Source of the DNA: Halorubrum lacusprofundi ATCC 49239
GTDB taxonomy: Archaea > Halobacteriota > Halobacteria > Halobacteriales > Haloferacaceae
Assembly (NCBI RefSeq): GCF_000022205.1
Contig: NC_012030.1
Location: 62,001-126,000 of the forward strand
Reading direction: 5' to 3'
DNA: 64,000 bases
Below, one piece after another: positions 3,689-45,534 of this stretch (positions are counted from its first letter, which is position 1; each line of letters starts with the position of its first letter). The position numbers were made by a program, and so were the translations under genes. The notes under the pieces were generated by a model. The model was given only the letters and a program-made list of their open reading frames with translations. It was not told the DNA's origin and made no database searches.

Positions 3689-4002
3689 CTACGCCGCGTT
3701 GAGGTAGTCGTCGGGTGGATACCCGGCCTTCGAGACGATCTTTCGTGCGTCCTTCCGGACAGCTTGGTTGGTAGGGCGTTCTTAGTGTGTCCGGATGTGG
3801 TCCTTGATCGAGGCTGCCACCTCGTCCATCAGATCCGGCCCCGCAATATCGAGCACGCTATCGAGCGTCTAGCCGGCCTCCGATGCCGGGAAACCTTGAC
3901 GGGAACCGAGCACCTCGTCGTTTACCGACGCGACCTCGTACCGATGGCCGTTACGGCGGGGCTCCACATCTCGTTCCATTACTGGCTGATAGAACGGAAC
4001 CT
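3689..4002 (-). pseudogene. Gene remnant resembling the C-terminus of type I restriction subunit HsdR, cut by ISH3-A
   Basis: One minus-strand frame can be read from the ISH3 border to a TAG at 3689-3691, broken by two in-frame stops. It includes VPFYQPVMERDVEP, later LMDEVAASIKDHIRTH, and ends AVRKDARKIVSKAGYPPDD. The last segment resembles the end of HsdR proteins, where a basic helix precedes a conserved GYPPD. The upstream part of the gene is missing because ISH3 copy A begins at 4003. The assignment rests on a short motif and is tentative, but the coding character followed by stops is clear. It is too damaged to be functional. Confidence 0.4.
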
Positions 4003-5401
4003 CAGTACCTCACAAAGCATCCTCGGCTAGCTGTTTCTGCGGCCTGAGTTCTGTGTCGAAGCGGTTGTACTGACGGTCTCGACGAGAGAATTACGGACGG
4101 ATCGACGGAGAGCTGTCGCTGTCGGCGGCGGTCAGCCGCCGACGCGACAGCGTCGCCACTCACTCCGCTGGCTTGCTCGGTCGGTGGTTAGCGGTGGAAT
4201 CGGTCGTCAGGTGGCCGATTCGCGGGGACGGCCCGACGCACCGCGAGGGCCGTCCACGCAGCTCGTCGAATCATATTGACGAACTCCTTGTACGGCCACC
4301 ACCAGAGGCGACGCCCGCCTCGGCGGGGCGTCGCCACATACTCGTAGTGAAGGTACCGCCAGACGTTCTGTAAGAGGAGACTCACCACCACGTACAGCAG
4401 CCGTACCGTTGGATCTCGTGTTGTCGTTGTCGCTATCGCTTGCTCAAACAAGCGATAGCTTGACTCGATACCGAAGCGTTTCGAGTAGTGGTATCGAGCG
4501 TCCCGTGGTGAGTCGATGAACGGCGCGTCAGCGGCGTAGCCGTGACGCGCCACACCGTTCTCGTCATACTTCCCATTTAGGTACGTACAGTCGATGTAGA
4601 CGGGAAAATCGACGGTCCAGCTGTGACCGTCGAGTTTCCCCGTCAGATCATGCTGAATGACGCGACTCCATCCTTCCGAGAGCTCTTGCTGAATCGCCTC
4701 ACCCCACCGGATGATCGGGATCACGTACGCGTAATTGTGCGCCTGAAGCAGCGTGAGACACTTACTGTCGTAGAATCCGCGATCAAGGTAGACGGCCTTG
4801 ACCCCGGCGTCAAGGCCGTCGAGGACACCGAAGAACTCAGCGAGGACACTACTTGCGGTATCGCCGTCTTTGAGACGGCGTACCGCCAGCGTGTAGCGTT
4901 TGTTCTTCACACGCGCGTAGAGTGTGGCATAGGCGTGGAACGCAGTGGTTCCACGCTTCGCTACCGAGTGATAGAGGCCGTCTGTGTCGTCTTCGTCACC
5001 GTAGTAGGGCCGCAGGTGGAGGTCTGCGCAGACCTCCACCTGTTCGGGGAGCAATTCATCGAGATCCTTTCGCAGGAGCGTGTTAGCGACTCGTTCGAGC
5101 CGTTCCGGCTCGAACTTCGTCCGAAGATGGTAGAGGACCGTGTTCCCAGCGGGTGAGTTCTGGCTCGACGCACAGAGCGTAGAGACAGAGGTCCCGTCGG
5201 CGCAAGCGCCGACGAGGACCTCATAGATGTCTTCAGCAGTGATTTCAGCGTTATTGGCTAACGAGAGCGAAACTTCCTCGTCAAGGCGGTTGACGAGAAA
5301 GTTAAGAAGCTGGTCCTCGTGGATCTCACCGTCTGCTTGTTTGGTTTTAGACACACCTTCAGCAAGCAGACGTTCTAACTAAGCGGCTTTGTGAAGTACT
5401 G
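4003..5401 (-). mobile_element. ISH3-family insertion sequence, copy A
   Basis: A 1399-bp element bounded by 16-bp imperfect inverted repeats, CAGTACCTCACAAAGC at the left and the complement of CAGTACTTCACAAAGC at the right. It contains one transposase gene. Copies of the same length lie at 44136-45534 (inverted) and 53792-55190 (same orientation), and their transposases are identical in translation. The flanks here are AACCT on the left and ATTTT on the right, so there is no 5-bp target duplication, unlike copy B. This suggests recombination or deletion after insertion. The right end lies only 23 bp from the first CRISPR repeat. Confidence 0.9.
4188..5354 (-). CDS. ISH3-family DDE transposase (copy A)
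   Basis: 388 residues, the typical ISH3-family length. It catalyses cut-and-paste movement of its own element. Visible family features are an N-terminal helical region (MSKTKQADGEIHEDQLLNFL), a first acidic strand LAVRRLKDGD, the AVYLDRGFYDSK segment expected to hold a catalytic Asp, and the RFGIESSYRLFEQ segment near the C-terminus holding the catalytic Glu. The C-terminal region RYLHYEYVATPRRGGRRLWWWPYKEF is typical of the group. The start is 48 bp inside the right terminal repeat. The frame is intact and the element may still be active, as copy B's fresh target duplication suggests. Confidence 0.9.
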   Translation of the reverse strand: MSKTKQADGEIHEDQLLNFLVNRLDEEVSLSLANNAEITAEDIYEVLVGACADGTSVSTLCASSQNSPAGNTVLYHLRTKFEPERLERVANTLLRKDLDELLPEQVEVCADLHLRPYYGDEDDTDGLYHSVAKRGTTAFHAYATLYARVKNKRYTLAVRRLKDGDTASSVLAEFFGVLDGLDAGVKAVYLDRGFYDSKCLTLLQAHNYAYVIPIIRWGEAIQQELSEGWSRVIQHDLTGKLDGHSWTVDFPVYIDCTYLNGKYDENGVARHGYAADAPFIDSPRDARYHYSKRFGIESSYRLFEQAIATTTTRDPTVRLLYVVVSLLLQNVWRYLHYEYVATPRRGGRRLWWWPYKEFVNMIRRAAWTALAVRRAVPANRPPDDRFHR

Positions 5402-5424
5402 ATTTTCTGAATGAACCTGCATTT

Positions 5425-8400
5425 GCTTCAAACCCACGAGGGGTTCGGCTGAAAGACTGCGACTACCCGATCGAGCGCGGCGCAGTGCTGCTTCAAACCC
5501 ACGAGGGGTTCGGCTGAAAGTCGCTGTTTTCCTTCGGGCTCGACAAGGAGGTCGTCGCTTCAAACCCACGAGGGGTTCGGCTGAAAGTGGAGCTCATCGG
5601 CCAGTTCGTCGGAGACTGAAATGGCTTCAAACCCACGAGGGGTTCGGCTGAAAGTCATCGAACCACCGCCTCAAAGAAGGCGCGACGGCCGCTTCAAACC
5701 CACGAGGGGTTCGGCTGAAAGGAGAGAAATGACTAGAGAGGTATGAATCAGCGTGTGGCTTCAAACCCACGAGGGGTTCGGCTGAAAGGGGACGGTCTAC
5801 GTCGGCAGCGACGATAACAGCCTGCTTCAAACCCACGAGGGGTTCGGCTGAAAGCAGGTGACGCCCGAGGACGTTACAGAGACGCCGATAGGCTTCAAAC
5901 CCACGAGGGGTTCGGCTGAAAGACCTGTTCGGGGATAATCGAAAGCACTTCGATTCTCGCTTCAAACCCACGAGGGGTTCGGCTGAAAGTGGTATCTCTT
6001 CATCGGTCGTCACCAGCGTAGATCTGCTTCAAACCCACGAGGGGTTCGGCTGAAAGGATTAACTGATTCGGCTCCGATCCGCTGCCTGTTCAGCTTCAAA
6101 CCCACGAGGGGTTCGGCTGAAAGTCGGTAAGCCCGCTCCGCTCTACTTTTCGTCGTCAGCTTCAAACCCACGAGGGGTTCGGCTGAAAGGCGACGTGAGG
6201 GCGTTCTCGATCACCGACACGGCGAAGCTTCAAACCCACGAGGGGTTCGGCTGAAAGAAGCCGCCACCGAGGACATCGTCGACGCTCGTTCGGCTTCAAA
6301 CCCACGAGGGGTTCGGCTGAAAGTCTCCTTCGTGATCGCAACGATCACAGGTGTAGTCGCTTCAAACCCACGAGGGGTTCGGCTGAAAGTCGTCGCCTTC
6401 GCCACCCTCGCCGCGAGGGCTGGGCGCTTCAAACCCACGAGGGGTTCGGCTGAAAGAGCTCGATCTCGACCGGCACGTGGTCGGGAGACTCGCTTCAAAC
6501 CCACGAGGGGTTCGGCTGAAAGAGTAGGGTCGCCACACCCGCGAAAGCAACGAGCCCGCTTCAAACCCACGAGGGGTTCGGCTGAAAGAAAAACTTATGG
6601 GCCAACGATCCGTTAGTTGCTCGCTTCAAACCCACGAGGGGTTCGGCTGAAAGCACACCCCCACCCCACACACACGGACCGTTATTCGCTTCAAACCCAC
6701 GAGGGGTTCGGCTGAAAGACGAGCGCGGCGGCTGGAACGAGTCGGGTCATAGCTTCAAACCCACGAGGGGTTCGGCTGAAAGCCTTCCTACGGTGCTGAA
6801 ACCATGAAATCACTGAAAGAGCTTCAAACCCACGAGGGGTTCGGCTGAAAGCACCAGCGAGGAGCCTATTAGCCCAAAAGAGGGGCCGCTTCAAACCCAC
6901 GAGGGGTTCGGCTGAAAGTACTGCCGTCTGGTCGCTGGTTGCCAAACCATACTGCTTCAAACCCACGAGGGGTTCGGCTGAAAGCACGCGCTCTTTTGGC
7001 CGACCGATAACCTGCCGTAGGCTTCAAACCCACGAGGGGTTCGGCTGAAAGCCGGGCGAACCGCTGTATCCCGGTGAGAATACGATTGCTTCAAACCCAC
7101 GAGGGGTTCGGCTGAAAGCATGGATCCGTCCTCAAAGCCATCACCAACTACCACGCTTCAAACCCACGAGGGGTTCGGCTGAAAGCCTATCCTGTTCGAA
7201 GAACGTCCGCTGAAGGTCGAGGCTTCAAACCCACGAGGGGTTCGGCTGAAAGGGCGGGCGGCAGGCAATGGCGTCGGTTACGCGACGAGCTTCAAACCCA
7301 CGAGGGGTTCGGCTGAAAGGTGGTTGTGGATTCGGTCGCCACTCTCGGTCTCGATGCTTCAAACCCACGAGGGGTTCGGCTGAAAGCTCATCGGGGAGCG
7401 ATGAGAATTGTGAGTCGTCGAGGCTTCAAACCCACGAGGGGTTCGGCTGAAAGTCGGGGTTGATGAGCATCGCGATGTCGTCGGGCCAGCTTCAAACCCA
7501 CGAGGGGTTCGGCTGAAAGCGTCCGTCATCGCTTGCTGCTGACGGGCCTTGTGGGAGCTTCAAACCCACGAGGGGTTCGGCTGAAAGACAGGCCGATCGT
7601 GCGGACGTTGTCACGAAGCCGGGTGCTTCAAACCCACGAGGGGTTCGGCTGAAAGGCGGCCACTGACGGCGGCGCAGCGACCGACGAGCCCAGCTTCAAA
7701 CCCACGAGGGGTTCGGCTGAAAGTTCTCGATGGCGTCTTCCTTGAGGTCGTACTTGATGCTTCAAACCCACGAGGGGTTCGGCTGAAAGCGTTCACTGAG
7801 ACGTATTCTGTGGGGGCCTACAGCGTGCTTCAAACCCACGAGGGGTTCGGCTGAAAGTCTTGACAGGGCATACAGACCCATCACCACGAGTGAGCTTCAA
7901 ACCCACGAGGGGTTCGGCTGAAAGGCTCCAACAGCCCCGGCCGGACGACCGAATCCCACCAGCTTCAAACCCACGAGGGGTTCGGCTGAAAGCGTCCTTG
8001 GGAAGCGGGTTGAATGGGAGATCGCGATCGCTTCAAACCCACGAGGGGTTCGGCTGAAAGGCGATCTCCGCGCCGGGCTCGGCGTGGTTGATACTGCTTC
8101 AAACCCACGAGGGGTTCGGCTGAAAGGTTCGCGTAGTTGTCCTCGACGATCCAGCGGTCGTCGCTTCAAACCCACGAGGGGTTCGGCTGAAAGCGAGTCT
8201 TCGGGTTGCCCGACGAGTCCGACGGGACGCTTCAAACCCACGAGGGGTTCGGCTGAAAGAACTGGCCGACGAATGGGAGGGCGAACTGCCCGCCGCTTCA
8301 AACCCACGAGGGGTTCGGCTGAAAGATTAACGTTGATACGGACAAAATCGTGAGTGATACTGCTTCAAACCCACGAGGGGTTCGGCTGAAAGCGTCTACC

Positions 8401-11400
8401 GCCATTCAGACGGGACGGGCGAACCTGCTTCAAACCCACGAGGGGTTCGGCTGAAAGTACTTATAGGTTGTTATAGAGGATTATAACTCATTGCTTCAAA
8501 CCCACGAGGGGTTCGGCTGAAAGCGTAGGCGTCGATCATCCGAAAATCGCCTCCGGCGGCTTCAAACCCACGAGGGGTTCGGCTGAAAGCCAACCGCTTG
8601 GGTTGGGCGTCGCCGCTGTCGTCGCTTCAAACCCACGAGGGGTTCGGCTGAAAGAAGAAGTTCTCGCCGTCGTCCTGCCACAGTGAACAGCTTCAAACCC
8701 ACGAGGGGTTCGGCTGAAAGCCGGTCCCTCGGCGGTCGAGCAGCTGCAAGCCGAGCTTCAAACCCACGAGGGGTTCGGCTGAAAGTCAAACGCGAGGATG
8801 AGTCGACGTCGGAGTTTTTCGCTTCAAACCCACGAGGGGTTCGGCTGAAAGTGGCGAACTCAAGTCACTCCGGCGAAACGGATTCTGCTTCAAACCCACG
8901 AGGGGTTCGGCTGAAAGAGTCCGTTCCGGATCTCGATCGTTGCCGTTCCGTGGCTTCAAACCCACGAGGGGTTCGGCTGAAAGGAGGTCACCGTCAACGG
9001 GACCAACGGCTCGGACGTGCTTCAAACCCACGAGGGGTTCGGCTGAAAGTCAGCCCAAGACGACGAGGACGGCGAGAGAGACCGCTTCAAACCCACGAGG
9101 GGTTCGGCTGAAAGCTCGATCCCCAGCGCCGACGATCTCGGAATCATTGGCTTCAAACCCACGAGGGGTTCGGCTGAAAGTACCAATGCTCGTTTTGGCG
9201 ATCGCACTCGGAGCCGGCTTCAAACCCACGAGGGGTTCGGCTGAAAGTGATTTCGCTGAGAGTGTCGTCAAACCGACTTAAATGCTTCAAACCCACGAGG
9301 GGTTCGGCTGAAAGGTCGTCGGAATGGGCAACGCGCCGATGAACAACCAGCTTCAAACCCACGAGGGGTTCGGCTGAAAGGACGAATCGAGGTGTGACTG
9401 CAGCGGGATGTCGACGCTTCAAACCCACGAGGGGTTCGGCTGAAAGGCCGGGCGCGACGTCGATCAGCACTCGGCCGATTGTGCTTCAAACCCACGAGGG
9501 GTTCGGCTGAAAGCGCCTCGTGATTGAGGCATTCTCCCGCAAGGGCGAGGCTTCAAACCCACGAGGGGTTCGGCTGAAAGTCAGTCGTGGTCGTTTGCTG
9601 ACCATCCTCACTCGTGCTTCAAACCCACGAGGGGTTCGGCTGAAAGGCCGTCCTCGTCTCGCGGAAACAGCTCTGGGAACTCGCTTCAAACCCACGAGGG
9701 GTTCGGCTGAAAGGACGAACTCGAGGAACTCCGTCGAGGACGTGGTAGACGCTTCAAACCCACGAGGGGTTCGGCTGAAAGCCCGCACCTCCGCGTCCGC
9801 CGCGAGAACGTCGAAAAGCTTCAAACCCACGAGGGGTTCGGCTGAAAGGACGGGGATCGTGATCGGCGAGGGGTTCCGGAAGCTTCAAACCCACGAGGGG
9901 TTCGGCTGAAAGGTCGACGTCGTGGAGGCGGATCCGGGTCGGTTCCGGCTTCAAACCCACGAGGGGTTCGGCTGAAAGGTTGCCCAGTGTGTTCCGAGTT
10001 GCACATCTTGATGTGCTTCAAACCCACGAGGGGTTCGGCTGAAAGACTGCGATATCGCCCACATTATACGACTCGTCAAGGCTTCAAACCCACGAGGGGT
10101 TCGGCTGAAAGAGGGGGCGTTTTCGTGATTGCCGGGCAGACAGGCTGCTTCAAACCCACGAGGGGTTCGGCTGAAAGGATCGCCCGATCTCGTGGAACGG
10201 CGCGATCACCCAGCTTCAAACCCACGAGGGGTTCGGCTGAAAGTCGCGGATCGACCCATCGACGTTCCCGTTTTCGTCGCTTCAAACCCACGAGGGGTTC
10301 GGCTGAAAGTATCGGCCTCGGTGGCGAGATCCCGCAGTTCGTCGCTTCAAACCCACGAGGGGTTCGGCTGAAAGCACTGAGCTATCAGGTTTTGCATTTG
10401 GGTATCAGTGCTTCAAACCCACGAGGGGTTCGGCTGAAAGGTCAGTCAACTCGCGAGCAACCTCGTGGTTCCATTCGCTTCAAACCCACGAGGGGTTCGG
10501 CTGAAAGGTCGAGTCTTGGCCTGCCGAGCCGATCCGCACCTGCTTCAAACCCACGAGGGGTTCGGCTGAAAGAGCGTTCTCTCTGCTCGAACTAAGACTA
10601 ATTGGGATGCTTCAAACCCACGAGGGGTTCGGCTGAAAGACCGAGGACGAGGTTGCGGAACTGGCACGTAGTAGCTTCAAACCCACGAGGGGTTCGGCTG
10701 AAAGCTGTGGAACCTTAAACGAAGTCTCGAACGCACGCTCGCTTCAAACCCACGAGGGGTTCGGCTGAAAGTTTAGCGGTTAGCTGGGTAAGTGCCAAAA
10801 ACAACAGCTTCAAACCCACGAGGGGTTCGGCTGAAAGCTTGTGCACGATCCTGCTGGACGTCGGGGTTGGTGAAGCTTCAAACCCACGAGGGGTTCGGCT
10901 GAAAGGAGGAATTTGGACGGTGAAATTGCTGAATACAGAATGCTTCAAACCCACGAGGGGTTCGGCTGAAAGACGATCAACAACTCGGCAGATCCGACGA
11001 ACGCGGAAGCTTCAAACCCACGAGGGGTTCGGCTGAAAGCGCCGTCACTGTTCTCGACCATCGTCTCGCCGAGCTGGCTTCAAACCCACGAGGGGTTCGG
11101 CTGAAAGGGCCTGTACCCCGCGTTCTAGGTCTTTTAGCTTGGCGCTTCAAACCCACGAGGGGTTCGGCTGAAAGCGCGTGTGTTGATCCCGTCGCTGAAC
11201 AGAGTGACTGCTTCAAACCCACGAGGGGTTCGGCTGAAAGCATATGTTGATAATCGAGGACGGAAAGGGGGACAGCTTCAAACCCACGAGGGGTTCGGCT
11301 GAAAGCGGAACGCCGTCGACGCCACTTCGGCCCCTTGGCCGCTTCAAACCCACGAGGGGTTCGGCTGAAAGGGTGTCGACCAGTTTGACGTTGCTGTAAC

Positions 11401-14153
11401 TGAGATCGCTTCAAACCCACGAGGGGTTCGGCTGAAAGGTGGCGAGTGCCTTAGACGACACCATGCCGTCTGCCCGCTTCAAACCCACGAGGGGTTCGGC
11501 TGAAAGTCCGTCTCATCAGCCGGAACGTAGAAGTACGGCTCGCTTCAAACCCACGAGGGGTTCGGCTGAAAGTTGCTGTGCGGTGCGTTGCTGTACTGTT
11601 GTGTTACTGCTTCAAACCCACGAGGGGTTCGGCTGAAAGTGGCGAGTGCCTTAGACGACACCATGCCGTCTGCCCGCTTCAAACCCACGAGGGGTTCGGC
11701 TGAAAGGCGACGGTCGAGAAGAGCGATTCCTAGATAGTGCTTCAAACCCACGAGGGGTTCGGCTGAAAGTCTGGGTTGATACCTTCAGTAGTAACCCTTC
11801 AGTAGCTTCAAACCCACGAGGGGTTCGGCTGAAAGTCGATGTCGTTCTCGACCGGCTGGACGGCGTCGATGCTTCAAACCCACGAGGGGTTCGGCTGAAA
11901 GGACTCCGAGGCCCCGACCGCGTCGGCCCACGCTTGGCTTCAAACCCACGAGGGGTTCGGCTGAAAGCTCACCGCGAGGCTCGTACACACCCTCGTCTGA
12001 GTTGCTTCAAACCCACGAGGGGTTCGGCTGAAAGGGCGCTCGGATCGTCGGCAGAACCAACATGTCCTCGCTTCAAACCCACGAGGGGTTCGGCTGAAAG
12101 ACGCCGGCAGCTGCGCGGCGTCACCCGAGTCGTCGCTTCAAACCCACGAGGGGTTCGGCTGAAAGGCATTCCCGAGGAAAAGCGGTCGGTTCAACTCAAG
12201 CTTCAAACCCACGAGGGGTTCGGCTGAAAGGCGGCCCGACCAACGCCCGAACCTTCGTCGAAGACGCGCTTCAAACCCACGAGGGGTTCGGCTGAAAGGC
12301 GACGCCGGCGCCCTCAAGTTCCCACGGATACGGGCTTCAAACCCACGAGGGGTTCGGCTGAAAGTATCTTCGTCTTCGCGACGCTTCCGAACGACTCGGC
12401 TTCAAACCCACGAGGGGTTCGGCTGAAAGCCCCACGATTGAGGCACTCTCCCGCAAGGGCGACGCTTCAAACCCACGAGGGGTTCGGCTGAAAGGCGGAG
12501 TCCGACCGCGCCCAGGCCGCCGGCGAGGTCGCTTCAAACCCACGAGGGGTTCGGCTGAAAGAACGCGAAGCCTGAGGGCGACGATACGTGGCGGAAGCTT
12601 CAAACCCACGAGGGGTTCGGCTGAAAGGAGTACACGTTCGTCGACGCGACGGACAACACGCCGCTTCAAACCCACGAGGGGTTCGGCTGAAAGTAGGCTG
12701 TTCCCGTTTGAGTCGGTGAAGTCCTTGCTTCAAACCCACGAGGGGTTCGGCTGAAAGGCCGTCTATCCAGTAGGTCCCTCCGAGCGCCTCGATGCTTCAA
12801 ACCCACGAGGGGTTCGGCTGAAAGTCTGAATCGGCGTTGTCGCCAGCCCACGGATGATAGCTTCAAACCCACGAGGGGTTCGGCTGAAAGCCTCCTCGTG
12901 TCGCTATCGCTGGCTCAAACCGGGGGCTTCAAACCCACGAGGGGTTCGGCTGAAAGTCGCGGCCGACCAGCGGGGACTACGACGACCAGATGCTTCAAAC
13001 CCACGAGGGGTTCGGCTGAAAGGATGGCTGGGAATCGGCTGGCAGAGCGAGATACGAGCTTCAAACCCACGAGGGGTTCGGCTGAAAGACGAGATTGTCC
13101 ACCCGTTCGGCGCGTTTACCTGTGGCTTCAAACCCACGAGGGGTTCGGCTGAAAGTGGCGCAAGACAGGGTCACAGTCGCTTTTTCGAACGGCTTCAAAC
13201 CCACGAGGGGTTCGGCTGAAAGCCCCACGATTGAGGCACTCTCCCGCGATGGCGACGCTTCAAACCCACGAGGGGTTCGGCTGAAAGGTGGATCGCACCG
13301 CACACCTCCCGGTCGATCCGGACGCTTCAAACCCACGAGGGGTTCGGCTGAAAGCGGGATCGCGGACGTCATCACCGTCGACGAAGGCGCTTCAAACCCA
13401 CGAGGGGTTCGGCTGAAAGGGCGGTTCGTTCACTGCCGTCGTAACGTACGACAAGCTTCAAACCCACGAGGGGTTCGGCTGAAAGGGTTCGACTTCGGCA
13501 GGGACAGGGCTTCACGGGCGCTTCAAACCCACGAGGGGTTCGGCTGAAAGCATTATCGACCCGGTTCCCTCGACCACGATCTTCCCGCTTCAAACCCACG
13601 AGGGGTTCGGCTGAAAGCACGAGCGCGTGGTCGTGATCATGCTCGACGAGATCGCTTCAAACCCACGAGGGGTTCGGCTGAAAGTTGAGTGGCTCGTCGT
13701 TTTCGGATTCGAACCGTGCTTCAAACCCACGAGGGGTTCGGCTGAAAGTCGGCAACTCCTCGATCTCGTCGGAATCCGAGACGCTTCAAACCCACGAGGG
13801 GTTCGGCTGAAAGGATCGTCGGTGTTGTCGACTGCGCTGAGGTGTTCGGCTTCAAACCCACGAGGGGTTCGGCTGAAAGTCGGCTTCTGCTTCGATTTGT
13901 TCAGTCATAAATGGTGCTTCAAACCCACGAGGGGTTCGGCTGAAAGTCGGCTTCTGCTTCGATTTGTTCAGTCATAAATGGTGCTTCAAACCCACGAGGG
14001 GTTCGGCTGAAAGGCCGGCAGGCCGAGCGTCGCGAGCGTGACGATCCCGCTTCAAACCCACGAGGGGTTCGGCTGAAAGACGAACAGACACGCAAGCTCA
14101 ACATCCACATCGACGGGCTGTCGCTTCAAACCCACGAGGGGTTCGGCTGAAAG
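5425..14153 (-). CRISPR. Large CRISPR array, type I-B, about 132 repeats and 131 spacers
   Basis: A 31-bp repeat recurs every 64-74 bp. On the minus (likely transcribed) strand it begins CTTTCAGCCGAACC and ends GTGGGTTTGAAGC, close to known haloarchaeal I-B repeats. My hand count is 132 repeats; allow an error of one or two. Spacers are mostly 33-38 nt, the last before the leader about 43 nt. All repeats I read are the same sequence, including the leader-distal one. The short stem AACCC/GGGTT inside the repeat suits Cas6 processing. The leader and cas2 adjoin the right end, so new spacers enter near 14123 and transcription runs leftward. Two spacers occur in duplicate and three are variants aimed at one gene. 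Confidence 0.98.
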
Positions 14154-14516: not shown

Positions 14517-15524
14517 TTACCACCACCGTTCGGTCGGCCGGTACGGCTCGCCGGTCAGTATGTGCTTCTTCAAACTGTACACATCCGTTTGCACGAGTGT
14601 TTTGTAGCTCACGTTTCGCTTTAGTCGGGGATGCTCGACTGTTTTATCAAGCGTTTCCTCATACTCGGCAAGCACTGTCAGTCGACCGTCTTCAGTAAGC
14701 AGACAGCCATCGAGATCCGATTCGAACTCATCAGGGCTGATCTGTCGACGGTTTACGAGCCGAAACAGCACACGATCCGCGAGTATCGGTTTATAAATAT
14801 CCGCGATATCGAGCGAGAGCGTAAATCGGCGATCACCCGGTTCATGCATGAACCCGACTGTTGGATCAAGTGCTGTCTTGCGGATCGCAGAGACACAGGC
14901 CGTATAAACCATCGCGTTCAGGAACGAAATGAGCGCGTTCGTCTCGTTGGTCGGTGGATTGTATTCACGCCGATCTAGGGCGAACGGGTCACGCAGAATC
15001 TCACTGAAACACGAATAATAGGTTTTGCGTGCGGTTGCTTCGGTCCCACGAAGTCCGTCAATGCTTTCGGCTGTGCTTGCTTTCGTCTTGAGTGATTCGA
15101 GCCGATCGATTTCTGAGTCGAACGAACAGTCGCGGGCATTATAATAGACAAGATTTGCCCGCATATTATGGATACTCGCTTCGATCATCAACGTGGCAAT
15201 CCCGAGTCGACGATCCGGATCATCATACGCGCGTACCTGCTCGACGACGGTGTTTCCCGAGAGATGGCTCCGTTTCGGGAGATATGACCCTTTGTAATAG
15301 TCCTTCCATCCGAACACGTGCGCAGGAACTCCGTGATCGTTGAGCAGGCCGAGTGCTCGGGTATTGAAATCGATCTGCCCGTGCAGATACAGCGTGTCGA
15401 TACTTTCGACCGGTAGGTGTTCCACCTCCCCATCGAGGGTGTCGATTCTGAGTGTGTCTTCACTTCGCGACAGTTCGCCGTCGGTGAATACGTGATGATT
15501 GGGTTTCGTCATGATTAGAGCCAA
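14517..15524 (-). CDS. cas1: CRISPR-associated integrase Cas1, type I-B
   Basis: 335 residues. The N-terminal beta domain opens with NHHVFTDGELSRSEDTLRI, and the alpha domain holds the metal site: Glu in RGTEATARKTYY, His in GFMHEPGDRRFTLSLDIAD and the Asp of the same block. With Cas2 it integrates protospacers into the array. The gene overlaps the end of cas4 by 10 bp and is followed one base later by cas2, so the three form an adaptation unit. The second Met (MTKPNHHVF) could be the start; the first is used because it keeps the tight overlap. Length and motifs are complete. Confidence 0.96.
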   Translation of the reverse strand: MALIMTKPNHHVFTDGELSRSEDTLRIDTLDGEVEHLPVESIDTLYLHGQIDFNTRALGLLNDHGVPAHVFGWKDYYKGSYLPKRSHLSGNTVVEQVRAYDDPDRRLGIATLMIEASIHNMRANLVYYNARDCSFDSEIDRLESLKTKASTAESIDGLRGTEATARKTYYSCFSEILRDPFALDRREYNPPTNETNALISFLNAMVYTACVSAIRKTALDPTVGFMHEPGDRRFTLSLDIADIYKPILADRVLFRLVNRRQISPDEFESDLDGCLLTEDGRLTVLAEYEETLDKTVEHPRLKRNVSYKTLVQTDVYSLKKHILTGEPYRPTERWW

Positions 15525-16138
15525 CAGATGTCTTGGTACAAACAGGAATCGCAGTATGGTTTTTTGTCGAGTGTCGGTGGACTATCGCTCTCGACTACGT
15601 CGATGATGCCACGGATCGTTTCCTCGACGGCGGCTGCGTTGTCCTCGGTGAGGCTGACCTCCTCGCGTGTTCGTTCGGCAGGATACGCCAGTACACCGTC
15701 CCGTTGGATGTCGAGGATTCGGTCGAGATACCAGAGGTAGTAAAGCAACTGCATCCGCGCAGGTTTTTCCAGCGTCGACGAGGCTTTGACCTCCATCACC
15801 TCACCGGAATCGAGCATATCGAGTGCGATTCGACCGTTTATTTGGAATGACCGGCGGTTATCACGATAGCTGGTCTCATCGATGTGTGTTCCGCGTCGGA
15901 TGTTCGCTGCGCTGCGGTCGATATCGATTCCCCGCGAGGTAAACCAGAGTTCGCGTTTACAGACGTGATAGTACTGGACTAGCAGCCCAGTTACCCGAAC
16001 ACGAGGCTCACGATGTGGTGCACGTTCACGCTCAATAAACTCCGATATCAGTTCCTCGCTGCCGGGATCGTGATTCTGAGTCATCGAATAGTCCTCTGTT
16101 TGTCTGTGTCGACTAGTAGGACGCTCGTTCGGTACCAC
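15515..16138 (-). CDS. cas4: CRISPR-associated exonuclease Cas4
   Basis: 207 residues from the first Met; an internal Met at 16084 (MTQNHDPG) gives 189 residues, closer to the usual size. Cas4 is a RecB-like iron-sulphur nuclease that trims and selects PAM-bearing prespacers. Visible features are the first cluster Cys in YYHVCKREL, GTHIDE, the catalytic strands IALDMLD and GEVMEVKASS (Asp, Glu, Lys), QLLYYLWYL, and the C-terminal cluster CDSCLYQDICWL. It overlaps cas1 by 10 bp and follows cas3 by 34 bp. Confidence 0.93.
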   Translation of the reverse strand: MVPNERPTSRHRQTEDYSMTQNHDPGSEELISEFIERERAPHREPRVRVTGLLVQYYHVCKRELWFTSRGIDIDRSAANIRRGTHIDETSYRDNRRSFQINGRIALDMLDSGEVMEVKASSTLEKPARMQLLYYLWYLDRILDIQRDGVLAYPAERTREEVSLTEDNAAAVEETIRGIIDVVESDSPPTLDKKPYCDSCLYQDICWL

Positions 16139-16172
16139 TCACAATTACACAGTGAGTGTGATCGGGAGCAAA

Positions 16173-19040
16173 TCATACCGAGAACCGCCCTAAAATAGTG
16201 TCTTCGACACCTTGGAGTCCACCAGAGTCGAACCCGTATTCGAGACCACTCCCACCTCGATACTCAAAGACCTGTGCCCCCTCGTCGCCACGATCTCGGT
16301 GATCAATTCGTTGGATCTTCGGTGCGTCTTCCATCGTCCGAACCGGAAGCGATACGCGTAATTGTGAAGCTTCATCGAGTTTCTTGAACCCAAAACTGTC
16401 GTTTGCGCAGAACGCCTCAGTGATCTTTTCGAGAGTCTTCTTATCAGCTTCGGTTACTGCAACGAGGACGTCGACCGTTTCGTATCCGCCGATGAGTGAT
16501 TGACGAGCAAGCCACCGTGCTTCCGCGTTTTCGATATGATCTCGGATGTCGGTGTTTGCGACGGATTTGGTCGTATGTATCTGCTCGAAATACGCTTCGA
16601 CAGCGTGAAGCGAAATGGATACATCGGGAATCTGCTCGGTCTCTCCGATATCTGCAAGCACATCAGAGATGAGCCGAAGATGCCCGCGAACACCGGCCTC
16701 ATTTGAGCCTCGTTCATACACGTACCCTGCAGGCGGTTTCTCCGTCGGTTCGGCTGGTGTTTCTTCGTCCGGATCAGCTATGGTCCACACGATGACCCGA
16801 CCACCGTTTTTTCCCCACTCGTACGAGCGGTTGCACCGTCCTGCCGCTTGAACAATACTGTCTATCGGTGCGATATCGCGGAACACCGTTTTGAAACTTA
16901 CATCGACACCGGCCTCGATGGCCTGTGTCGACACACAAACGAACCGAACGGGTGCTGTCGAGAGCATCGTCAATAGATGAATGAGTATCCGGCGGTCGAA
17001 CGGCCGATATCGTGAGTTGAATGTCAACACGAACAGCGAGCTGGATTCAGGTGTCGACCACGACCCGGTTTTATCAACTGGAGGGATAAGTCGATGTGAG
17101 GCGAGCACCTCATAGGCAATCTCTTTTGGAGATTGCTCCGGATCGATTGCACTGATATTGTTGCTCGTCAGATACTCCCGAACAGCAACACCGAGATGGG
17201 CAACTGTCTCGTTCTCACAAATTATATCGGTGAGTTCTGCCGAGCTGGCGATAGTATTACACACCGTAAGCGTCGACTCGCCGGTTTCTGTACGGTCGAT
17301 GATCCGCGTTGCGGCCTCCTCGTACCCGATAAATCCATTGTCGCTGTTGATCTGGTGAGTTAATGCAGTCTTATCAAGCGTGTACTGGACTCGTTCGGCC
17401 TGGTCGAAATAGCGTTCTTCATTCGCCGGTGGGAGGTCAGTCTCGTATGCTGGCCGTTGACTGCACGCTTCACACGCTGTTACGTTGTGTGTCTGTCCGT
17501 CCTCAAGCAATGAGACGGTGTTGACCTCTCGGAGCACCGAGGGCTGGGTAGCGGTCATCGAAATAATGTGGGTATCGAACTCGTCGGTCAGCGTCGAAAG
17601 CAGGCGTGGAATCGCGTCCCACCAGTCTTTCGGAAGTGCCTGTGGCTCATCGAGAATTACGATCCCCGAATCGAGCGCAGGGAGTTTCAACCCTTGCCGG
17701 TTTGAGGGTCCTGTGAGACTCTCAAACAGTTGTACGAAGGTTGTCAGAATCGTTCCATCACGCCACGACTCGCCGAGTAATCCAGCCTGATCCGCATCGG
17801 TTATGTCGACATCTGAATCGTCGTGATCCCCGTGAATGACGACGGTCTCGCTGAGATAATGATGGACGGTAAGTGCGGACCGTGTCGGGTCGACGCCCCA
17901 CAGCTCCGGATTCTCGAATAACTCACGAGTCTGTTCGATAATACTCGTATACGGAAGTGCGTACACGAGTGGTCGTGGATGGTCTCTGTCATTACGTCCA
18001 TCCAGAATATCTCGTGTTTCGAACCCAGCTGAAAGACCCGTGAACGTTTTTCCCAGTCCTGTCGGGAGTGTGAGTGTTGCGATGGCCGACTCATCGTTGT
18101 CGAGCCACTCGTGGACACCACAAACAGCCTGACGGCGTGCTCGCTCACGTTCGTCATTTAATGCTGCTTCGTGTTCGTCGTCAGGTGGTGTCGCTCGCAA
18201 CCCTGCAATATACTGTTCAAGCGTCGACAAATCAAGCGTGTCGAAACCGAACAGTTCGTTGTCCGAGATCGTCATCGCATGGCTCTTGTCGGCAAGCGTG
18301 AGCGATGCCCAGTAGTGTATCGTTCGGTCATACAGTGCTTCTGGGAGGTTTTTATTCGACTTGCGTCGGCCGGTGAGTTCTGCTTCGGTACTCAGTGCTT
18401 GTAGGCCCGGGATGATTTCACCGTTGCTTGCCCATTTGTAGAACGCCTCCCAAGAGACCGTGTCGACGGTATCGAACTGCTGGCCTGCCATCGCAAAGAA
18501 CTCGTCTGCGGCTTCGGGCCATGTGTCGTCAATACGATCAAGTTGTGCCTGAATCACAGCCTCATCAAACGCCTCGATTAGTGTGTTTGCTGTATACTCT
18601 GCGGCGTTAGGCAACGCTTGGTGATGTCGTGCAACCGCGAGCGTTGCAGCAAGACAATCGCGGTCGGAGGCACTGGCCCGATTGAGGACGAACCACGTTG
18701 CGAGTGCTCCAAGCCGTGCGTGGTTCTTTTCTGCATCAGGTCCTTCGTATTCCTCGTCTGGACGCACGTGTTCTTGGAACTGCGGCGTTGCTTTCCCGAA
18801 GTCGTGGAGCGTTGCTGCGACCCACAGCCACAGTTCTCGTTCAGTTGGGCCAGCAAACAGTGTCGTCGCTCGTTCGGGAACACTAGTGCTGTGTGCTGTC
18901 AGTAGTAGGTGACCTTCCTCAGTTGTCTGGTCTGCTGGATGTTGCCGGTTCTTATCGGTCTCTCTCGGATGCGAAATGAGTGGGAGTTCCATATAGGGGA
19001 ATTGGATTTTTTGATTACCGGAAGACGACTGTTCGATCAC
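16173..19040 (-). CDS. cas3: CRISPR-associated helicase-nuclease Cas3 (HD + SF2)
   Basis: 955 residues. The N-terminal HD nuclease domain shows the metal-binding [14 protein letters not shown] (His79-Asp80). The helicase has PTGLGKT (Walker A), [10 protein letters not shown] (DExx box, with DEPQ where DEAH is usual in this subtype), [10 protein letters not shown] (motif III) and [12 protein letters not shown] followed by QAAGRCNR (motifs V and VI). Cas3 is recruited by Cascade to unwind and degrade target DNA. The first Met overlaps cas5 by 26 bp. MELPLISHP at 18992 is a likely alternative start, leaving a 22-bp gap. All motifs look intact, so interference should be functional. Confidence 0.95.
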
Positions 19041-19812
19041 CGACCGACACCGGTGTTACATCTGCCGTAGAGCCAACTCGAACGGGCGTATCAGCTGAGC
19101 GTGTATACACGTAGTCGTCGAAACGTGTCGTTTTCCGTCCGCCAAGGGTCGCCTCCATGACTGCCGGTGAGCGTTCGATGTCGTAGGTAACTCCCTGTTG
19201 TGGGATTACCTCGGACAGTGAACCCGGAACGACCGAGTCGACATCGTACTGCTCGGCCTCAGCAAGCTCCGTTGGCGAAACGTCGGTCTCGACGTCTTCA
19301 ACCGTACAGAGATACTCGGACTTGCCAAGGCTCGGCGGGTAGTAGGACTCCTCGTTATCGAGTCGACGTTCGAGTTTCTCGTAGTAGGCTTCGTCTTCAA
19401 CAGCTACGTCGATACGATATACCGGATCGGTGAGCAGCTCGTACGCGTGTATTTGTCGGTCGCCCTCCGTATCCTGATATGTGAGTGCGTAACTCCGTCG
19501 ACTCCCTGCTGTCTTCGTCACTGCCTGTTTTGGATCCGTCCCTAACCCGGTTGTTGGAACATTGACGGTTCGGATATCAAATAACGGCGTGATGGCGATA
19601 GCGGATGTATCAGCTCCAAAGACATCGTAGTACGAGTCTCGGTCGCTGCCGACGATAGCTGCGAGCATCCCAGCGACAGTAGTCCGTGGTGGTATCCGAT
19701 AGGTTTGTTTCGTAACACTACGCCCGACGCGCTTGAAATGCCCCCATGTCGACCGGACGGTCAACGAAAGGCAAGTATCAGGCACGCCGCTGGCGTTGAT
19801 GGATGGTGTCAT
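19015..19812 (-). CDS. cas5: Cascade subunit Cas5 (type I-B)
   Basis: 265 residues. The RAMP-like N-terminus [29 protein letters not shown], followed by [12 protein letters not shown], is the standard Cas5 signature (strand, then a Ser/Thr-rich loop and a helix). In I-B Cascade, Cas5 caps the 5' handle of the crRNA and contacts Cas8b. The gene starts 24 bp after the cas7 stop and overlaps the longest cas3 reading by 26 bp. Length and order match haloarchaeal I-B operons. Confidence 0.93.
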
Positions 19813-19836
19813 TGAAGTTGTGATATGCCGGTGGGC

Positions 19837-20859
19837 TTACTCCGCGAAATCACGCTCTTCGAGAACGTCGATCTGGTGGACTGAGTGGCCTTCCGATTCG
19901 AGATGGTCGCCGAACTCGCTCGCCGGGATCGTCTTATCACCGGTTGTCAGTGTCAGATAGTCACTTCCCACGACGTGGACGGTCTCGATCCGATCCTCGG
20001 CGCGATCCAACGCCGTAACGAGATTCGAGACATCCAAGACGACATCGTTGATCGAACGGAGCGGTTTGTCGTTTTCATCGGACAGCGTGACATGGTTGTG
20101 AAGTCCACCGATGTGATAATTATCAGGTTTGTACTCCGGTCGAACGTAGAGCCGTGGCTCTTGGCCCAGTTTTGACCGGGATGTCGTCTGGTTCTTCAAC
20201 GCACGCCAGCAGAGCGAATCGAGACGTTTGACATCTGTCTCGGACAGATTCGTCGACTCTGCGCCGTGGTTGTCGACCAACCCCCAGAAGGGAAAGATCC
20301 CGTATTTGATTCTCTTGTCGTCGAGATCGAATCCACCCTGCCGGTTCCCATCGCCCGTAGAGATGACGCTCGTGAGAGAATCGTACTCCTCGTTGTCTTC
20401 AACCTCGTTCAACGATTTCGCTGGCAGGAACTGAACCGGCCCCTGATACTGGTTCGGAAGCGCACTCCCGAGGGCTTGTCGGAGTTTTTCGTCCTCTTCA
20501 TCGTCACTTGACTCGAAACTCATCGTTGCGCCGAAGTACCGAACGTCAGTGGCGGCCGCAAGGAATCGTTCACCGACGTCTTCGATCTCTTCGATGTCGT
20601 CTACGTCGTCGATATCTTCGAGCACATCCAACGCGAGAGTTGTACGCGGCCGTGCATCTCCATCGAGCTTTTTGACGTAAATATCGAACCCGTCGTCGAG
20701 CAGTTGGTCGCGGAGATACCGCTTGAGACGGACATCGGTAATGATTCCCTGTCCGGTGTCAGGATCGCGTCGGGGGCGGTTGTCGCCGATAGGGTTGCCG
20801 TTCGGGTTGCAGTCCTGTGCGTCGTAAATGAACAGTATTTCGGATCGGTTGAGTGTCAT
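19837..20859 (-). CDS. cas7: Cascade backbone subunit Cas7 (Csh2 type)
   Basis: 340 residues. It opens with SEILFIYDAQDCNPNGNP, the conserved first strand and NPNGNP loop of Csh2/Cas7 proteins, followed by RRDPDTGQGIITDVRLKRYLRDQL. Further family segments are VRYFGATMSF and GIFPFWGLVDNHGAESTNLSE. Cas7 polymerises along the spacer part of the crRNA to form the Cascade backbone. It lies 21 bp after cas8b and 24 bp before cas5. Confidence 0.95.
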   Translation of the reverse strand: MTLNRSEILFIYDAQDCNPNGNPIGDNRPRRDPDTGQGIITDVRLKRYLRDQLLDDGFDIYVKKLDGDARPRTTLALDVLEDIDDVDDIEEIEDVGERFLAAATDVRYFGATMSFESSDDEEDEKLRQALGSALPNQYQGPVQFLPAKSLNEVEDNEEYDSLTSVISTGDGNRQGGFDLDDKRIKYGIFPFWGLVDNHGAESTNLSETDVKRLDSLCWRALKNQTTSRSKLGQEPRLYVRPEYKPDNYHIGGLHNHVTLSDENDKPLRSINDVVLDVSNLVTALDRAEDRIETVHVVGSDYLTLTTGDKTIPASEFGDHLESEGHSVHQIDVLEERDFAE

Positions 20860-20880
20860 TGGTATATGGTGTTTTATTGA

Positions 20881-23034
20881 TCAGTTTGCGGGCGATTCGG
20901 CTGCTTCGCTCTCCTCGCTTGCGTCGTCTTTTTTGTACAGATCGAACGCGTTCGGCATCGACCGTCGACCGTGGGCGTGTCCGAGCACGTAGGCAAACTG
21001 GAGATCACGTTTGTCGATCTCCCATTTGGTCGGCATCTGCTCCGTCGTTTCAAGAAGCAGGTCGACTGTTTCAGGGAACAGAATATCTCGGTCAGCGTAC
21101 TGTTTTGAGTCGTGTGCGTACACTTTTGCCTTTTCTAAGGCTGTTTTCACCGCTTGTTCGAGCCCGTTTTTCGTGAGCTGATCGCCACGCGTTTTCGAGT
21201 CGAGCGGTCGACCGAGATCGCGCTCGTCTGCTTGATGCCAACTTATTTGTCCGACGAGAACGCCAGCGAGGGCGGTTGCCTTTCGCTCGGCGTTCTCGGT
21301 GAACATGGGTCGGTCGAGGAACGATTCGAGTCGGTACTTACGGATCGCCGCGAGGTTCGAAAGGTCAGTGTCTGTGTCTTCGATTGCTGTCATAGTCTCT
21401 GTGTCCGTTGGTTCGACCGCCGCGTCGAGTCCTGTTAGGAGTCCGGCACGCGACAGCGATTCGAGATGCACGAGCTGTTGGGCGATGACCTGTTGTGGAA
21501 CCGGGTCGTCGCCATCGAACTCGTCACCCCAGCGCTGCATGTACTCTGAAAAGAGCATCGAGGCGTCAAGTGGTACTCCGGCGATGAGTCGGTGGTCGAC
21601 GATTCGTCGGAAGTCGTCCCCCTCCTCGTCACGGTAGGCAAACACGGCGTCGGTGAATGTGTGGCCGACGATTTTGCCGAACGCGACGTTTCGAGCCTGA
21701 CCCGTCTCGTCGGGAAAATCAAGGAGGTCCCAGTTATCGTAGGTTCTGAATCCTCCCGATTCGGGCGAGAGTGTCGGCCCTTGGACCGTGTCGACAAGCG
21801 ACTTTGCGAGTTCGGAGACCCAATAGATACCCGCCGAGGGTTCTTCGGCGATGATGTTTTTGTCGTCACTGATTGGTAATGAGACGACATAGAATCGGAT
21901 TTCGTCTTTCAGTGCCCGAACTGCTGGATCGTCGTTTTCTTGGATCTCGTAGGTAACTCTCGCCATCGGGGCATGTGAACTGTCCGTGTACTCGCTTTCT
22001 GAATCGAGTGAATGGATCGCCCGATATAGTGTTTCAGCTTTTAATTCGGTGAGTTCGCCAGCGAAGTACGGGAGTGTGTACGTCTCAACCCCGCCTCGGC
22101 GAAGCACACAGCGCTCGATAAGGTCCTGACCTTTACTGAACAGCATCGCAACGTCGGCACTCACCGGATAGTTTCGCCACGATTGGTCACGTCGGAGGCC
22201 GGGCTGAGCATCCGGATGTTTGACTGAAAAAACTTCCAGCGGGCTTTCAGGTGTCCCGACTACACGACCCACCTGATCGGTCACAACACCGACTGCCTCG
22301 CCTTCGGAAGCAGGGCCAGAACTAATATTCTTGTCAGTGGCGTTGGCCGTCGCGTAGCGTCGCATTGCTCGGTTGAGTACATCGAGATCGGCGGGCCAAA
22401 ACCAGTCTGTGTCATCATTGTCAGTAGTGCTGAGATCTGTGTCGTTGATCCGACAGCGGACAGTCAGTACAGTCGGGACTGAATCGTCTGTGGGTAGTAG
22501 TGACTCTATATCTGATTGAATTCGTTCGAGTGTCTCGCCGTCTTTCGTGAATACCTTGTCTAACGTTTCGATAACCCACGCATCAGGGTGTCCGTTGTCA
22601 CCAGTAATACTCTGGACGCTATCTTGATTAGTCCATGAACGAACACGCCTCAGGATCGTCCCAGCAACACCCGAGGCGTCGTTTCCGTTTTTCGATCCGA
22701 TCTGCGTGAGACTGTACTTCGCTCCCCGGCCGGAGGACTTGTGTGAGTACGCGAGCTTTGCTATATCATCGGTGCGGAGGGTATCGACGCTGATACCTGC
22801 GCCTCCTTGTTCGTATGTTGGCTCGTCGCCAGTCAAATCGAGATCAATAACGACCAAACGCCCGTCGTCGATAAAGGGGTCAAGCGTACTTGGCGTACCG
22901 TACAGCGAGCCTCCGGATTCGGCAACTGCAAGTACACCGTACAGTGACATCACGTCTTCGAGGCTGGTCGGTGGTCGACCATGCCAGTAGTCATCGATGG
23001 CTGCTGCGAAGTCTTCCCGTGTCGGGCCGCTCAT
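20881..23034 (-). CDS. cas8b: Cascade large subunit Cas8b (Csh1 type)
   Basis: 717 residues from the ATG at 23032-23034. A GTG 15 bp upstream would add MGSLI, but the ATG gives an ATGA overlap with the cas6 stop and is preferred. Cas8b is the PAM-sensing large subunit of I-B Cascade. The length matches haloarchaeal Cas8b. Recognisable features are the N-terminal segment SLEDVMSLYGVLAVAESGG, MARVTYEIQENDDPAVRALKDEIRFYVVSLPISDDKN in the middle, and the C-terminal helical part ending LQFAYVLGHAHGRRSMPNA. It is more variable than the other cas genes; the assignment rests on the N-terminus, length and position. Confidence 0.92.
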   Translation of the reverse strand: MSGPTREDFAAAIDDYWHGRPPTSLEDVMSLYGVLAVAESGGSLYGTPSTLDPFIDDGRLVVIDLDLTGDEPTYEQGGAGISVDTLRTDDIAKLAYSHKSSGRGAKYSLTQIGSKNGNDASGVAGTILRRVRSWTNQDSVQSITGDNGHPDAWVIETLDKVFTKDGETLERIQSDIESLLPTDDSVPTVLTVRCRINDTDLSTTDNDDTDWFWPADLDVLNRAMRRYATANATDKNISSGPASEGEAVGVVTDQVGRVVGTPESPLEVFSVKHPDAQPGLRRDQSWRNYPVSADVAMLFSKGQDLIERCVLRRGGVETYTLPYFAGELTELKAETLYRAIHSLDSESEYTDSSHAPMARVTYEIQENDDPAVRALKDEIRFYVVSLPISDDKNIIAEEPSAGIYWVSELAKSLVDTVQGPTLSPESGGFRTYDNWDLLDFPDETGQARNVAFGKIVGHTFTDAVFAYRDEEGDDFRRIVDHRLIAGVPLDASMLFSEYMQRWGDEFDGDDPVPQQVIAQQLVHLESLSRAGLLTGLDAAVEPTDTETMTAIEDTDTDLSNLAAIRKYRLESFLDRPMFTENAERKATALAGVLVGQISWHQADERDLGRPLDSKTRGDQLTKNGLEQAVKTALEKAKVYAHDSKQYADRDILFPETVDLLLETTEQMPTKWEIDKRDLQFAYVLGHAHGRRSMPNAFDLYKKDDASEESEAAESPAN

Positions 23035-23816
23035 GATGAGACTTCCCACGGTGCCGTTTTGTCCGTAATATTGATGAATCCCAAGCCGAGGGAGTTCCGC
23101 TCACCTAACCCTGTATCCAGCGCGAGGTTGAGGTGTCGACGGTGGTGGTCGTCTTGGACCGTATACCCGAATCGCCACTTACTGAGGACGTAAGTCATCT
23201 GCGTACCCTCGGTCACAGTCACCGGGATCGAGAAGGTCTTGATCAACTCGTAGGAGTCGAACAGTTCTGTGTCTCGCTCGCTCGGTCCCGGCAAGTAGTC
23301 GGGACAGAACAGTCCGTGTTTCTTGTCGAGGTTAGCCCGCAGTTGGGTGATCAGCGGTTCGGTGGTGTGTTCGGGCTGCCAGAAGACAGCAGTGTCGCCC
23401 CCGGGATGGTCGATTCCGTACTCCTCGCACCGCCAAGGAGGAATTCGGATCAACAAGCCCGTGCCGCTTTCGATGATTCCCTGCGTGCCTGGTTCGCCGA
23501 CATCTGGCGTAAATGAGGTCACGTCGTCGACGTGAAACGGCATCTCGCCGATATTGAACTCCGGCTCTTCAAGCAGGTCTGCCGCGACGTGCGCAAGGAG
23601 CCCATCTTCCACCGAGGAAACAATCAGTTTTCGCTCGTCACCCTCCTGCATGTCGTGTGGGGGGAACGGATTTGAATACGCGAATCCTGGTGGCTCACCG
23701 GAATCATGCCGTTCGCCGTATTCGGTTCCATCGAGAGCATTCCAGAGTCGACCACGAAGTTTGTGATGGTAGTCATCTTGGTAGGCAGTGTCTGCCCGTG
23801 CTGACAGATGAGCCAT
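23031..23816 (-). CDS. cas6: CRISPR RNA endoribonuclease Cas6
   Basis: 261 residues from the ATG at 23814-23816 (an upstream GTG at 23825 adds three residues). Cas6 cuts the array transcript within each repeat. The RAMP fold is supported by HHKLRGRLWNALDG at the N-terminus, KFxYS-like PGFAYSNPFPP, and the C-terminal glycine-rich loop GLGERNSLGLGFINI, the hallmark of Cas6. The His in GERHDSGEPPG or the paired His near the N-terminus are candidate catalytic residues. It is the first gene of the operon, so it sets up crRNA production before Cascade assembly. Confidence 0.93.
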   Translation of the reverse strand: MAHLSARADTAYQDDYHHKLRGRLWNALDGTEYGERHDSGEPPGFAYSNPFPPHDMQEGDERKLIVSSVEDGLLAHVAADLLEEPEFNIGEMPFHVDDVTSFTPDVGEPGTQGIIESGTGLLIRIPPWRCEEYGIDHPGGDTAVFWQPEHTTEPLITQLRANLDKKHGLFCPDYLPGPSERDTELFDSYELIKTFSIPVTVTEGTQMTYVLSKWRFGYTVQDDHHRRHLNLALDTGLGERNSLGLGFINITDKTAPWEVSS

Positions 23817-23881
23817 TATTCGCACCTTTCTGACTCACCTCTATAGTTGGGGGATATCATCCAAATAATCACATACAATGA

Positions 23882-44135: not shown

Positions 44136-45534
44136 CAGTACTTCACAAAGCCGCTTAGTAAGAACGTCTGCTTGCTGAAGGTGTGTCTAAAACCAAACAA
44201 GCAGACGGTGAGATCCACGAGGACCAGCTTCTTAACTTTCTCGTCAACCGCCTTGACGAGGAAGTTTCGCTCTCGTTAGCCAATAACGCTGAAATCACTG
44301 CTGAAGACATCTATGAGGTCCTCGTCGGCGCTTGCGCCGACGGGACCTCTGTCTCTACGCTCTGTGCGTCGAGCCAGAACTCACCCGCTGGGAACACGGT
44401 CCTCTACCATCTTCGGACGAAGTTCGAGCCGGAACGGCTCGAACGAGTCGCTAACACGCTCCTGCGAAAGGATCTCGATGAATTGCTCCCCGAACAGGTG
44501 GAGGTCTGCGCAGACCTCCACCTGCGGCCCTACTACGGTGACGAAGACGACACAGACGGCCTCTATCACTCGGTAGCGAAGCGTGGAACCACTGCGTTCC
44601 ACGCCTATGCCACACTCTACGCGCGTGTGAAGAACAAACGCTACACGCTGGCGGTACGCCGTCTCAAAGACGGCGATACCGCAAGTAGTGTCCTCGCTGA
44701 GTTCTTCGGTGTCCTCGACGGCCTTGACGCCGGGGTCAAGGCCGTCTACCTTGATCGCGGATTCTACGACAGTAAGTGTCTCACGCTGCTTCAGGCGCAC
44801 AATTACGCGTACGTGATCCCGATCATCCGGTGGGGTGAGGCGATTCAGCAAGAGCTCTCGGAAGGATGGAGTCGCGTCATTCAGCATGATCTGACGGGGA
44901 AACTCGACGGTCACAGCTGGACCGTCGATTTTCCCGTCTACATCGACTGTACGTACCTAAATGGGAAGTATGACGAGAACGGTGTGGCGCGTCACGGCTA
45001 CGCCGCTGACGCGCCGTTCATCGACTCACCACGGGACGCTCGATACCACTACTCGAAACGCTTCGGTATCGAGTCAAGCTATCGCTTGTTTGAGCAAGCG
45101 ATAGCGACAACGACAACACGAGATCCAACGGTACGGCTGCTGTACGTGGTGGTGAGTCTCCTCTTACAGAACGTCTGGCGGTACCTTCACTACGAGTATG
45201 TGGCGACGCCCCGCCGAGGCGGGCGTCGCCTCTGGTGGTGGCCGTACAAGGAGTTCGTCAATATGATTCGACGAGCTGCGTGGACGGCCCTCGCGGTGCG
45301 TCGGGCCGTCCCCGCGAATCGGCCACCTGACGACCGATTCCACCGCTAACCACCGACCGAGCAAGCCAGCGGAGTGAGTGGCGACGCTGTCGCGTCGGCG
45401 GCTGACCGCCGCCGACAGCGACAGCTCTCCGTCGATCCGTCCGTAATTCTCTCGTCGAGACCGTCAGTACAACCGCTTCGACACAGAACTCAGGCCGCAG
45501 AAACAGCTAGCCGAGGATGCTTTGTGAGGTACTG
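44136..45534 (+). mobile_element. ISH3-family insertion sequence, copy B, with 5-bp target duplication
   Basis: 1399 bp between CAGTACTTCACAAAGC and the complement of CAGTACCTCACAAAGC. Directly outside lie GTAAT (44131-44135) and GTAAT (45535-45539), a perfect 5-bp target duplication as expected for ISH3. It sits in the McrC-like gene in the opposite orientation to copies A, C and D. The intact duplication and reconstructable host gene show that this insertion is recent. Confidence 0.95.
44183..45349 (+). CDS. ISH3-family DDE transposase (copy B)
   Basis: 388 residues with the same translation as the transposases of copies A and C. The start at 44183 lies 47 bp inside the left end. The frame is intact. 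Because this copy has a clean target duplication, it or an identical sister was active recently. Its insertion silences the McrC-like nuclease gene. Confidence 0.9.
   Translation: MSKTKQADGEIHEDQLLNFLVNRLDEEVSLSLANNAEITAEDIYEVLVGACADGTSVSTLCASSQNSPAGNTVLYHLRTKFEPERLERVANTLLRKDLDELLPEQVEVCADLHLRPYYGDEDDTDGLYHSVAKRGTTAFHAYATLYARVKNKRYTLAVRRLKDGDTASSVLAEFFGVLDGLDAGVKAVYLDRGFYDSKCLTLLQAHNYAYVIPIIRWGEAIQQELSEGWSRVIQHDLTGKLDGHSWTVDFPVYIDCTYLNGKYDENGVARHGYAADAPFIDSPRDARYHYSKRFGIESSYRLFEQAIATTTTRDPTVRLLYVVVSLLLQNVWRYLHYEYVATPRRGGRRLWWWPYKEFVNMIRRAAWTALAVRRAVPANRPPDDRFHR

Follow-up and report, generated by a model that had tools for sequence, protein, structure and literature searches.

Spacer 113 of the type I-B CRISPR array of Halorubrum lacusprofundi ATCC 49239 was probably acquired from viral or plasmid DNA at a site adjoining TAC; its likeness to the transposase gene of the resident ISH3 element is probably a coincidence, and its crRNA probably spares the resident copies. 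We infer the source of the spacer and its non-targeting in the cell from the array, the cas genes, the protospacer-adjacent motif (PAM), the alignments, the lack of a better match, and the rate of chance matches. The window referred to below is the whole stretch of 64,000 nucleotides that was analyzed (positions 62,001 to 126,000 of contig NC_012030.1). It contains the following array and cas genes:

5425..14153, minus strand: CRISPR array, type I-B, with 132 repeats of 31 nt and 131 spacers
12891..12925, crRNA orientation corresponding to the minus strand: spacer 113 (35 nt), between repeats 113 and 114
14517..23825, minus strand: type I-B cas genes cas1, cas4, cas3, cas5b, cas7 (csh2), cas8b (csh1), and cas6, assigned by Pfam and NCBIfam matches

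Spacer 113 is a genuine type I-B spacer, being flanked by regular repeats in an array that adjoins type I-B cas genes. Scores above the model cut-off were obtained for cas1 (TIGR03641), cas5 (TIGR02592), cas7 (TIGR02590), and cas8b (TIGR02591). The crRNA orientation was set by the side on which the TAC PAM occurs at 13 of 15 protospacers. Spacers are 32 to 38 nt long, except for spacer 131 (43 nt). The genome comprises 3,692,576 bases on three contigs (525,943, 431,338, and 2,735,295 bases), and the replicon of the window appears to be pHLAC01 of H. lacusprofundi ATCC 49239 / ACAM34, which carries the only CRISPR locus of strain ACAM34 (PMC10544981). The array shares with the published pHLAC01 locus its type I-B assignment and its spacers matching HRTV-DL1, and the available text of the two reports (PMC10544981, PMC6011602) gives no sign of a difference. 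Most likely, the array in the window is this published locus itself.

Some of its spacers recur. Spacers 62, 106, and 118 (9514-9549, 12430-12463, and 13223-13256) are variants of one sequence, alike at 27 to 32 of 34 bases, as if the array had sampled the same site of related viruses or plasmids three times; no target for them was found in phage records. Spacers 91 and 94 (11439-11475 and 11640-11675) are the same except for one extra base at one end, and the neighboring spacers 128 and 129 (13880-13915 and 13947-13982) are identical. No tRNA genes were found within the window.

The gene that spacer 113 resembles occurs three times in the window:

3997..5407, minus strand: ISH3 element copy A, with its transposase ORF at 4188-5354 and the matched core at 4429-4449 (plus strand)
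44186..45346, plus strand: ISH3 transposase copy B (C3:106186-107346 on the contig), protein 100% identical, core at 45088-45108 (minus strand)
53980..55140, minus strand: ISH3 transposase copy C (C3:115980-117140 on the contig), protein 100% identical, core at 54218-54238 (plus strand)

The transposase of copy A scored 377.8 bits (cut-off, 225) with the ISH3 family model NF033541 (transpos_ISH3), and the element ends in imperfect terminal inverted arms of 22 nt (3997-4018 and 5386-5407, 86% complementary); both features place it in the ISH3 family. In the genome, 31 near-identical full copies were counted, and the core is present in 32 copies, 3 in the window and 29 elsewhere. The ISH3-family element of strain ACAM34 has been named ISHla1 (PMC10544981). 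Only 17 bases separate the end of copy A from the first repeat, at the far end of the array (3997-5424). Older spacers may thus have been cut off by its insertion; beyond it, the window yielded no repeats. Within the transposase gene, an inverted repeat with perfect 11-base arms and a loop of 6 bases (4432-4459) overlaps the stretch matched by the spacer.

Alignment confirmed the likeness over 21 of 22 bases that had been noticed earlier. The spacer core GTCGCTATCGCTGGCTCAAAC (12900-12920) has a single base difference from all three ISH3 copies of the window, the differing base being T in all 32 copies and G in spacer 113. In crRNA orientation, spacer 113 reads CCCCGGTTTGAGCCAGCGATAGCGACACGAGGAGG and ISH3 reads CGCTTGTTTGAGCAAGCGATAGCGACAACGACAAC, so that 24 of 35 bases match. 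The 11 mismatches fall at crRNA positions 2, 4, 5, 14, 28-32, 34, and 35, and 21 of the 22 bases over positions 6 to 27 are paired. The earlier note was also correct in placing the spacer in the reading frame of the transposase (PRFEPAIATRG in the spacer, RLFEQAIATTT in ISH3). Since a DNA match of 21/22 yields nearly the same peptide when read in register, the shared frame adds little, and we rejected it as independent support.

The weight of this match depends on where it is compared. Scored by ungapped local alignment (+1/-2) with the array itself excluded from the window, spacer 113 reached 19 and the next real spacer 14; the maximum was 13 for 131 reversed spacers and 16 for 1,965 dinucleotide shuffles. 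The other spacers scored no more than 14 in the window, ISH3 copies included, and a history of IS targeting by the array was rejected on this ground. Among 1,500 random 35-mers from Deep Lake virus records, 8 scored 17 or more against the window, a null that can include DNA truly shared with it, and such sharing exists. Deep Lake tailed-virus DNA was found to be shared with 55842-57446 and 62758-62807 (∼140 bases at 95 to 96% identity twice, and 50 bases at 100%).

For the genome-scale null, 400 kb of the same genome was sampled in 20 stretches, 18 of them from the largest contig. Here, 3 of 2,358 shuffled spacers scored 19 or more; the 131 real spacers gave one score of 18 and one of 17, and the 131 reversed spacers gave two scores of 17 and none higher. 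The shuffle rate of 0.17 per 131 spacers per 400 kb extrapolates to ∼1.5 such matches expected genome-wide (3.69 Mb), an estimate that rests on three events and spans roughly 0.3 to 4.5. The match is thus no stronger than chance over the genome, whereas an origin from ISH3 would call for a stronger one: exceptional inside the window, it looks ordinary at genome scale. Over the full length, a match of 24/35 is unexceptional even in the window, because seven other spacers (19, 27, 51, 54, 85, 126, and 127) also reach sites with 11 mismatches there; that of spacer 27 falls in the same ISH3 gene.

The earlier note had concluded that the spacer probably came from a related ISH3-family element. For comparison, 16 ISH3-family genes with 61.0 to 99.7% identity were chosen from 60 of 94 plasmid records listed. 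At the site in question, these relatives matched spacer 113 at 8 to 24 of 35 bases, the best being the copy of DL31 (24/35), which is identical at the site to the resident ISH3. Of 38 resident stretches, the 32 of ISHla1 type matched at 24/35 and the six others at 9 to 15/35. Hence, among the 16 relatives and 38 resident stretches, none fitted better than the resident copy, no full or nearly full-length match to an ISH3 member was obtained, and more distant relatives had a poorer fit in the core without any gain in the flanks. The residues Y-R-L/V preceding the core were invariant in all 54 sequences, including two that are only ∼30% identical, whereas spacer 113 has P-R there; following the core, Thr prevails in the family and the spacer encodes R-G-(G). 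The translation of the spacer therefore does not keep residues that are fixed in the family. ISHla1, although an ISH3-family member (NF033541) resembling the spacer at 21 of 22 core bases, departs from it in the overall match, in Y-R-L/V versus P-R, and in the PAM slot, which reads TAT.

The proposed family origin is thus unsupported: a source in an ISH3 relative is disfavored because better-fitting relatives and retention of the fixed residues would be expected, and neither holds. We nevertheless regard it as possible, if rather unlikely, that the spacer derives from a diverged or decayed ISH3-family copy. In such a copy, TAC at the Tyr codon would have served as PAM, Gln would have been replaced by Pro, the flanks would have diverged, and the Thr run may have become shorter. 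Such a spacer would act on that element in incoming DNA and ignore the resident copies. Consistent with this, the core is an outlier within the window, where the 1,965 shuffles stayed at 16 or below, and searches yielded no other source for spacer 113. In addition, the PAM slot falls on a conserved Tyr codon; this codon reads TAT in the resident copies and TAC in 10 of 16 relatives, which match the spacer less well, and a chance match would put the slot on TAT or TAC only about once in 32 cases. Against it, the array has no second spacer with a good match to ISH3, and a search of 391 haloarchaeal genomes allowing 3 mismatches detected no such element. If 9 bases of the Thr run were lost in frame, CGAG would match too, but this loss was rejected, as it adds only these four bases, is post hoc, and is not seen in the aligned members.

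A true source was searched for in several collections. The 35-mer of the spacer and a 26-mer comprising the core and its 3' side returned only the spacer itself from the 391 haloarchaeal genomes, as did a pattern with TAC included in 52 genomes of the genus; these pattern searches cover up to 3 mismatches, so that a source matching at, for example, 28/35 would escape them. Degenerate searches for RFEPAIATR in the genome collection retrieved no transposase, but five bacterial stretches whose frames were short or not transposase-like by eye. Viral contigs, queried with an exact 26-mer, degenerate FEPAIATRG, a 21-mer of either ISH3 or spacer type, and three 17- to 18-mers, gave nothing convincing; two contigs with 17 exact bases were dropped, since they matched at 22/35 over the full length and without TAC. 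In blastn searches with E-values up to 10, the sole hits among GenBank phages were four Erwinia phage records sharing stretches of 18 to 20 bases. The local score of spacer 113 in three Deep Lake tailed-virus records was at most 11, and the ISH3 protein had no match in phage records. In blastn against plasmids, ISH3 was found with an E-value of 1, equal to that of unrelated Vibrio genes. The finding that the earlier note named as refuting its reading, a perfect match to an unrelated viral or plasmid gene, did not turn up in these searches. As only 15 of the 131 spacers have a target located by these searches, the lack of one is typical of this array.

The located targets of other spacers defined the PAM of the array. 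Counted at up to 8 mismatches, 14 spacers (31, 35, 73, 74, 76, 97, 98, 99, 108, 111, 114, 120, 127, and 131) matched three Deep Lake tailed-virus records, and the three bases 5' of the protospacer were TAC for 12 of them, TAT for spacer 98, and AAC for spacer 108. An exact match, again beside TAC, was found for spacer 80 in a Halobacterium sp. DL1 plasmid. Acquisition next to a single PAM, TAC, is thereby indicated for 13 of 15 located protospacers, and TAC is the main adaptation PAM of Haloferax volcanii as well (PMC7521656). Spacers 111 and 114, near spacer 113, match Deep Lake tailed viruses exactly. For spacer 131 (14080-14122), nearest to the cas genes, the matches in Deep Lake virus records had 5 mismatches and lay beside TAC. 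In PMC10544981, 10 spacers are given as matching HRTV-DL1 at 100%, whereas we found 7 exact full-length matches over the three records and 6 in the record of the DL1 isolate. OP630576.1 contains three copies of the spacer 114 target (L015:58-92, 25812-25846, and 28502-28536), and each related record has one; the copies at start and end may reflect where the linear record was cut.

In all 32 resident ISH3 copies, the PAM slot reads TAT instead of the TAC of the array. Haloferax accepts six PAMs for interference, TAT being one of them, and requires pairing at crRNA positions 1 to 10 other than position 6 (PMC4390866). The resident site thus combines TAT with mismatches at crRNA positions 2, 4, and 5 and at 8 others, rather than a PAM with a paired seed. 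Provided that the Haloferax rules apply, no interference on ISH3 is expected, given TAT and the unpaired positions 2, 4, and 5, and the resident copies would not be targets of this crRNA, whatever the origin of the spacer. This agrees with the earlier suggestion that the remaining mismatches may protect the resident copies. Of the earlier reading, the core likeness, the frame, and the sparing of resident copies were therefore retained, and the ISH3-family origin was not.

It is very improbable that the crRNA binds the 32 resident copies without cutting, dampening the element or priming uptake of new spacers. Pairing of 21 of 22 bases at crRNA positions 6 to 27 and the use of TAT as an interference PAM in Haloferax would fit such an action; the pairing rule reported for Haloferax (PMC4390866) does not, positions 2, 4, and 5 being unpaired, and the 31 near-identical full copies of ISH3 argue against restraint. 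Moreover, without any other spacer matching ISH3 well, there is no sign of priming. Least probable of all is that the spacer was taken from a resident copy, to which its core is closest among all sequences examined, and was then altered until its own genome escaped, since 11 changes would have had to concentrate at the two ends while the core stayed almost intact, the PAM slot is TAT in all 32 copies, and the repeated spacer pairs 91/94 and 128/129 show no such drift.

Under the preferred reading, a virus or plasmid source, spacer 113 would be an ordinary member of the array, taken most likely beside TAC from an unsampled virus or plasmid. Its 22-base likeness to ISH3 would be a coincidence of the size expected for 131 spacers compared with a 3.7-Mb genome, and the 32 core-bearing resident copies would not be subject to interference, with three seed positions unpaired and 11 of 35 bases mismatched.

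Archaeal spacers matching transposase genes of other species have been described (PMC3285040), so that transposase genes are a known category of target, in line with an ISH3 source. Compared with those spacers, the match of spacer 113 spans just 22 of 35 bases and lacks the TAC of the array. If its source was an ISH3 relative after all, it would be one more transposase-matching spacer in this category. The results close the lead of an array seemingly aimed at the most abundant IS element of its own host: a core of 21/22 is within chance for 131 spacers against 3.7 Mb, and assigning a spacer to an IS element needs tests of PAM, seed, and family residues.
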